Shown one piece after another: positions 1,145-15,839 of a stretch of DNA of 33,143 nucleotides. Source of the DNA: Desulfitobacteriaceae bacterium (GTDB lineage Bacteria; Bacillota; Dehalobacteriia; Dehalobacteriales; Dehalobacteriaceae); assembly GCA_028709045.1 (NCBI GenBank), contig JAQVXR010000006.1, forward strand, positions 1-33,143, in the 5' to 3' direction. Each line of letters begins with the position of its first letter. Within the stretch, counting starts at the first letter, position 1. The notes below the pieces were generated by a model. The model had not been told where the DNA came from. It did no database searches and saw only the letters and a program-made list of their open reading frames with translations. A program made the translations under genes and the position numbers.

Positions 1145-1173
1145 GTGGGAGGGGATAATCCCCGCTAAACCAC
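1145..1173 (+). promoter_or_regulatory. candidate L1-binding operator in the rplK leader
   Basis: GTGGGAG (1145-1151) and ACCAC (1169-1173) flank a small hairpin in which GGGG (1151-1154) pairs with CCCC (1160-1163). The outer GTGG pairs with CCAC. The flanks resemble the L1-stalk helix of 23S rRNA, which in E. coli contains GUGGGAGG on one side and UACCAC on the other. Ribosomal protein L1 is known to repress its operon by binding such a mimic in the rplK leader. That this copy binds L1 is an inference. Confidence 0.6.
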
Positions 1174-1199
1174 AAACTAGGGTAAGGAGGTGTGAGGCT

Positions 1200-1625
1200 A
1201 TGGCAAAAAAAGTTATGGCAATGGTTAAGTTACAGATTCCTGGCGGTAAGGCAAATCCTGCACCGCCTGTCGGTCCTGCTTTAGGTCAGCATGGCGTCAA
1301 TATTATGGCTTTTTGCAAGGAGTTTAATGAAAGGACTGCAAAAGAAGCCGGGTTGATTATTCCGGCCGAAATTACTATTTATGCAGATCGTTCCTTCTCA
1401 TTTGTTTTAAAAACCCCCCCGGCAGCTGTATTATTAAAGAAAGCAGCCGGTATTGACAGCGGCTCCGGTGAGCCGAATAGAAAGAAGGTAGCCAAGCTTC
1501 CCAGGGAAAAAGTCCGGGAAATTGCTGAAATGAAAATGAAGGACCTAAATGCTGCAAGTGTTGATGCAGCTATGCGCATGGTTGAAGGTACTGCTCGAAG
1601 CATGGGTATTACCATAGTTGAGTAG
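1200..1625 (+). CDS. rplK: 50S ribosomal protein L11
   Basis: A 141-residue protein of the GTPase-associated centre that binds helices 43/44 of 23S rRNA and takes part in factor binding and the stringent response. The proline-rich N-terminal motif [16 protein letters not shown] is at residues 19-34, the site where thiostrepton-resistance changes occur in this family; it looks unaltered. The C-terminal RNA-binding domain carries the usual [10 protein letters not shown] segment. Length is standard. The ATG follows AAGGAGGTG at 1184-1192. It is co-transcribed with rplA, and the L1-operator-like hairpin lies just upstream. Confidence 0.97.
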
Positions 1626-1635
1626 TCCTTTCCCA

Positions 1636-1665
1636 GTGGGAGGAAGGTCTCTTCCGAATTACCAC
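1636..1665 (+). promoter_or_regulatory. second candidate L1-binding operator, next to the rplA ribosome binding site
   Basis: GTGGGAG (1636-1642) and ACCAC (1661-1665) again flank a hairpin, GGAAG (1642-1646) with CTTCC (1651-1655) and loop GTCT. The element shares its flanks with 1145-1173 but has an unrelated stem with similar pairing, so structure is kept while sequence varies. It ends directly before AAAGGAGG, the rplA Shine-Dalgarno, so a bound protein could block rplA translation. Binding by L1 is an inference from the 23S resemblance. Confidence 0.6.
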
Positions 1666-1680
1666 AAAGGAGGTTAAATA

Positions 1681-2379
1681 ATGCCGAAACATGGTAAGAA
1701 ATATCAAGATGCTCTAAAGACGTTTGACAGAAATAATTTATATGAACCCCAGGAGGCAGTTGCCCTGGTAAAAAAAGTTGCTCCGGCAAAATTTGACGAA
1801 ACAGTAGAGGTTGCTGTTAAGCTTAACCTTGACCCGAGACAAGCTGATCAACAGATTCGAGGTGCGGTAGTACTTCCCCATGGAACCGGCAAAAGCCGAA
1901 GTGTTTTAGTTTTTGCCAAAGGCGAAAAGGCTAAAGAGGCCGAAGAAGCTGGAGCCGATTTCGTTGGTGCCGAGGATATAGTGGCTAAAATTCAGGGAGG
2001 CTGGTTTGGTTTTGATGTGGCTGTTGCAACTCCTGATATGATGGGCGTTGTTGGTAAACTAGGACGTCTCTTAGGTCCGAAAGGTTTAATGCCTAACCCT
2101 AAAACCGGTACGGTCACTATGGATGTAGCCCGCGCGGTCAAGGAAGTTAAAGCGGGTAAGATTGAGTACCGACTCGATAAGGCGGCAATTATTCATGCGC
2201 CAATTGGGAAAGTTTCTTTTGACGAAAATAAACTGCTTGAAAACTATTTAACACTGGTCGAAGTGCTGCTTAAAGCAAAACCGGCGGTGGCAAAGGGACA
2301 GTATATTAAGAGTATTACCGTAGCCTCGACTATGAGTCCCGGGATACGAATTAACCCCTTAAAGCCGACGGGCAAATAA
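1681..2379 (+). CDS. rplA: 50S ribosomal protein L1
   Basis: A 232-residue protein that forms the mobile L1 stalk, helps release E-site tRNA and in many bacteria represses its own operon. The family core is recognisable: the [26 protein letters not shown] region near residues 119-144 with the signature [18 protein letters not shown], and a C-terminal SMSPGIRI-like end (here [10 protein letters not shown]). Domain I is made of both termini and domain II of the middle, as usual. The start ATG follows AAAGGAGG with 6-base spacing. Two L1-operator-like hairpins, one before rplK and one directly before this gene, fit autogenous control. Confidence 0.97.
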
Positions 2380-15633: not shown

Positions 15634-15839
15634 TTTTTCTGTAATGCGAAAAATAAATAGAAGGTTAACAAAGCATTTGCCGGATGGAAGTATGTGTAAA
15701 ACAGGGTAACTGTTTTGCGCTGCTTCCTCCTGGACTTATTGTAAACCGGAACGCGATGAAGTGGGAGGTTGCGTTATATAAGAACGGAAATTCTCACGGA
15801 GAAGGTCCGCGGAAAAACGGGCGAAAAGGAGGTTAATAC
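15634..15839 (+). promoter_or_regulatory. structured leader before the S10 operon
   Basis: The 206 bases after tuf contain a long hairpin: bases 15686-15704 pair with 15710-15727, giving 18 base pairs (some G-T) with one bulge and loop GGTAA. It is extended across an internal loop by CCGG (15680-15683) with CTGG (15730-15733). Two smaller stems follow: AACGC/GCGTT (15750-15754 with 15771-15775) and TTCTC/GAGAA (15791-15795 with 15799-15803). No T-run follows the big hairpin and no good promoter is visible. A leader controlling S10-operon expression or an RNA-processing site is plausible; no known family was recognised. Confidence 0.55.

Follow-up and report, generated by a model that had tools for sequence, protein, structure and literature searches.

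A predicted uL1 operator at the rplA ribosome binding site, with a sister site before rplK, in a Desulfitobacteriaceae bacterium

Results

Two irregular stem-loops in the rplK-rplA region

The stretch of DNA analysed here as a whole (33,143 nucleotides; contig JAQVXR010000006.1 of assembly GCA_028709045.1), termed the window, begins with the gene order rpmG-secE-nusG-rplK-rplA, followed by an L10 leader and rplJ-rplL-rpoB, the names being taken from the translations. Irregular stem-loops precede both rplK and rplA (Table 1), the latter located in a 55-nt intergenic spacer that, by direct reading, also contains a full Shine-Dalgarno (SD) sequence. In the rplK-proximal structure, the strands GGGGA and UCCCC enclose the apical loop UAA. 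Entries 1zho and 2hw8, which we take to be L1-mRNA complexes, contain T. thermophilus L1, a homologue of the L1 protein encoded in the window. Two other ribosomal protein leaders were recorded in the window: the L10 leader (RF00557, 69.1 bits) at positions 2431 to 2570 in the rplA-rplJ interval, where a terminator-like stem spans 2534 to 2557, and an S10-Clostridia ribosomal protein leader (RF03136, 39.3 bits) at 15748 to 15824.

Table 1. Positions of the predicted uL1 operators and neighbouring features in the window
Feature	Positions	Strand	Sequence or remark	Basis
uL1 operator (predicted) before rplK	1145-1173	+	GUGG-GA-GGGGA/UCCCC-G-CUAAA-CCAC	sequence, fold, genome pattern scan
rplK Shine-Dalgarno	1184-1190	+	AAGGAGG, about 10 nt past hairpin	direct read
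rplK (uL11)	1200-1625	+	stop TAG 1623-1625	ORF
UCCUUU	1626-1631	+	could pair with SD AAAGGA (1666-1671); not conserved, probably incidental	fold, relatives
uL1 operator (predicted) before rplA	1636-1665	+	GUGG-GA-GGAAG/CUUCC-G-AAUUA-CCAC	sequence, fold, conservation, covariation
Parts of rplA element: outer strand, GA and stem	1636-1655	+	GTGG 1636-1639, GA 1640-1641, stem GGAAG 1642-1646 / CTTCC 1651-1655	direct read
Parts of rplA element: loop and 3' strand	1647-1665	+	loop GTCT 1647-1650, G 1656, AATTA 1657-1661, CCAC 1662-1665	direct read
rplA Shine-Dalgarno	1666-1673	+	AAAGGAGG, immediately 3' of hairpin	direct read
rplA (uL1), presumed repressor	1681-2379	+	ATG 1681	ORF, PF00687 match, solved L1 homologues

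The initial annotation had pointed out that the same flanks surround unrelated, yet paired, stems at the rplK and rplA sites, and this was borne out by direct reading and by RNA folding of the window, which recovered the inner stems GGAAG/CUUCC (rplA site) and GGGGA/UCCCC (rplK site). Its description of an L1-operator-like element at the rplA ribosome binding site likewise holds, as the hairpin directly abuts AAAGGAGG, is conserved, and has a covarying inner stem. Compared with shuffled sequences, the stability of the hairpins is unremarkable and not significant (z-scores of -1.6 and -1.7 for the two sites).

Specificity of the motif and likeness to the 23S rRNA L1-stalk site

The pattern GTGGGAGN{6,25}ACCAC has two matches in the 2.8-Mb assembly, namely, the rplK and rplA sites themselves, and a backwards control pattern has one. 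A genome search with the covariance model returned only the same two sites; with whole-genome E-values of 0.06 and 0.67, this search is weak on its own. A comparable site is present in 165 of 194 real rplK-rplA spacers versus 4 of 3880 mononucleotide-shuffled trials, and across 187 distinct complete loci (736 kb) the anchors-only scan described below produced two other same-strand and two reverse-strand matches. A search of positions 1050 to 1760 against Rfam 15 matched no family up to an E-value of 5 at either site.

Since no 23S gene was detected in the window's own assembly, the comparison with the L1-stalk site of 23S rRNA (H76-H78) was made with relatives. The 23S stretch that recurs in genomes of the same family reads GTGGGAGACTAAG...GGAGTCGCTGGTGGGATACCAC and has the layout GUGG-GA-GACU..AGUC-G...GAUA-CCAC; locus L212 was confirmed by Rfam to be LSU rRNA. 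Like the mRNA sites, the rRNA site has the strands GUGGGAG and AUACCAC around a stem followed by G, whereas it differs from them in its location within rRNA, its larger apical part, and the longer 3' strand of its internal loop. The irregular stem-loop with its asymmetric internal loop thus matches the 23S L1 site, and both copies lie near a ribosome binding site, upstream of rplK and of rplA, as is characteristic of uL1 sites.

Covariation of the inner stem

The alignment used for covariation comprised 129 distinct sites; standard pairs occupy 95.2% of its pair cells, a value favoured by the fact that the sites were fitted to the model's structure. Cells in which both sides had changed numbered 81, compared with 27.4 in shuffles, none of 500 shuffles reaching 81, and pairing dropped to 43 to 70% when partners were slid by one to three columns. 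In a register test that involved no fitting to the structure, the first three stem positions were all paired in 63% of the rplA sites at the best offset and in 7 to 30% at the other offsets tested. Changes in the inner stem, for which stem-breaking substitutions had been the concern, therefore keep pairing. As the outer helix never varies across the aligned sites, the covariation comes wholly from the inner stem; the constancy of the outer helix is consistent with rRNA mimicry and is no proof of pairing. Conservation accompanied by covariation across related genomes, as expected of a uL1 site, is thus observed for the inner stem.

Distribution of the two sites in Bacillota and relatives

The distribution was followed in 80 rplA loci obtained from genome contigs and 90 from a Bacillota draw, the latter consisting of the 30 best profile matches and 60 loci picked regardless of the site, so that it is not a strictly random sample; the set of relatives contained 36 close and class-level loci, including that of the window. 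A first scan demanded a gapless stem of 3 bp and missed real sites, for which reason the later scan used the anchors only. Covariance model R1 proved narrow, missing the E. coli site and matching the 23S site via the outer strands only; the counts are therefore based on anchored motif scans.

With the anchors-only scan, an rplA site was found in 87 of the 90 Bacillota loci: 68 possessed the rplA site only, 19 both sites, 2 the rplK site only, and 1 neither. The closer relatives had an rplA site in 34 of 35 cases (29 with both sites, 5 with the rplA site only), the remaining locus having the rplK site only. Absence from close relatives was looked for and not encountered in the three other genomes of the same family, all of which carry both sites, and the element is present in nearly all Bacillota examined. 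These family members share the rplA stem GGAAG/CUUCC, though with differing loops, and have GGGG/CCCC as the rplK stem, so the two sites are inherited independently of each other. Calling the rplA element the "second" one is misleading, as in Bacillota the rplA site is common and the rplK site optional. Individual Bacillota loci showed peculiarities: in L135 and L146 the two strands of the rplA site lie far apart, and L166 has no recognisable site. Locus L208 has an rplK site only.

Occurrence of the rplK site was linked to the distance between nusG and rplK. Over 186 loci, none of the 60 in which the two genes are less than 30 nt apart carried it, versus 79 of the 97 with 60 nt or more between them; L010, L028, L031, and L044 are examples lacking the rplK site, and the window, L114, and L110 are examples having it. 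This link is partly a matter of mere room for the site. The pattern points to the rplA site as the permanent operator, to which an rplK site is added when rplK is separated from nusG. The rplA and rplK sites also differ in their position relative to the SD sequence. Among the fetched rplA loci, the motif adjoins the rplA SD almost everywhere, the distance from hairpin to SD being 0 to 2 nt in 162 of 176 rplA sites, versus 4 to 14 nt, with a mode of 9 to 10 nt, in 76 of 82 rplK sites.

Discussion

The analysis shows two structures that are conserved, covary in the inner stem, and resemble the 23S rRNA site. The rplA hairpin is real and well conserved, and it very probably has a function. We consider it highly likely that the element at rplA, a copy of the L1-stalk site of 23S rRNA, serves uL1 as a translational operator, with a sister site at rplK. 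From the mimicry, the position, and the published mechanism, we infer that L1 binds and represses as follows. L1 present in excess of free 23S rRNA sites would bind the hairpin, and since the rplA SD begins immediately after the outer helix, bound L1 would block access of the 30S subunit to rplA; the sister site would act likewise on rplK. Occlusion of the SD and separate control of rplK and rplA would be the consequences, direct occlusion being most plausible for rplA because there the helix ends 0 to 2 nt before the SD.

The E. coli L11 operon offers a contrast. Its site before rplK follows the same plan (GGG-GA-GCCUCU..AGAGGC-GUUAUUA-CCC, ahead of the rplK SD), but it is a single site with the outer helix GGG/CCC, and no rplA site exists, there being no room for one in a rplK-rplA spacer of 3 nt. 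The initial annotation had invoked this single site as a contrast, fairly so, as the site and the short spacer before rplA were both seen. Control of the E. coli type, i.e., a single site plus translational coupling, does not describe the window, which has two sites and the longer spacer. Even if L1 binds the rplA site, rplA could mainly be coupled to rplK, the rplA site only adding to repression exerted at the rplK site. The coupling of rplA to rplK in E. coli (PMC12548453) and the presence of both sites in the window are in line with such an arrangement, which we nevertheless regard as unlikely: the spacer here measures 55 nt and includes a full SD, compared with 3 nt in E. coli, and 68 of the 90 Bacillota loci have the rplA site without an rplK site, which leaves the rplA site to act by itself in those loci.

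Readings that dispense with L1 fare worse. The hexamer UCCUUU just after rplK could mask the rplA SD by pairing with AAAGGA, to be opened by ribosomes finishing rplK, and folding of the window does predict this pairing. Across 169 rplA sites, however, it occurs near shuffle level, it is not predicted in the same-family genome G001, and it leaves the fixed GUGGGA and ACCAC unexplained; masking of this kind is very improbable, and the anti-SD pairing was rejected as a general feature. The location of the hairpin between two genes would also suit a transcription terminator, an attenuator, or an RNA processing site, a notion we find scarcely credible: what comes after the hairpin is AAAGGAGG, with no U-run, a terminator scan reported nothing at positions 1636 to 1665, and the unchanging loop strands correspond to those of the 23S L1 site and to no processing signal.

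A uL1-binding operator at rplA is an element of a known kind in a known place. A review locates uL1 sites before rplK in Proteobacteria and before rplA in Actinobacteria and Cyanobacteria (PMC10931766). The same 2024 review, which also describes the mechanism, states with reference to Fu et al. 2013 that in Firmicutes rplK and rplA can each be preceded by an L1 site of their own, and with reference to Mikhaylina et al. 2021 that T. thermophilus and T. maritima likewise have two uL1 sites. Because of the former statement, the suggestion that the dual layout was undescribed for this group has to be abandoned; the layout is essentially known. Going by the review's description, the Firmicutes operators agree with those reported here in group, gene pair, both positions, and the irregular stem-loop with an internal bulge, with no difference in kind found; the rplK-rplA operons of T. 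thermophilus and T. maritima, likened by the same description, also have two sites, each before one gene, in phyla other than that of the window. In streptococci, the 5' untranslated region of rplK-rplA reportedly adopts a fold similar to the E. coli one (PMC6431027).

What is added here is modest: the rplA site predominates, the rplK site follows the nusG gap, and each of the two keeps a fixed SD spacing of its own. No statement of any of these was found, although Fu et al. 2013, known through its citation in PMC10931766, may contain part of them. We tentatively propose, giving it somewhat less than even chances, that throughout Bacillota the rplA site is primary and near-universal, that the rplK site follows the separation from nusG, and that the sites keep two fixed SD geometries (0 to 2 versus approximately 9 to 10 nt). 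If true, these geometries would mean that repression works somewhat differently at the two sites. There is also a gap in annotation, as neither L1 site is covered by any Rfam 15 family. For the biology of the operon, the arrangement means that a ribosomal protein probably controls each gene via that gene's own rRNA-mimicking site, and rplK and rplA would need no translational coupling.
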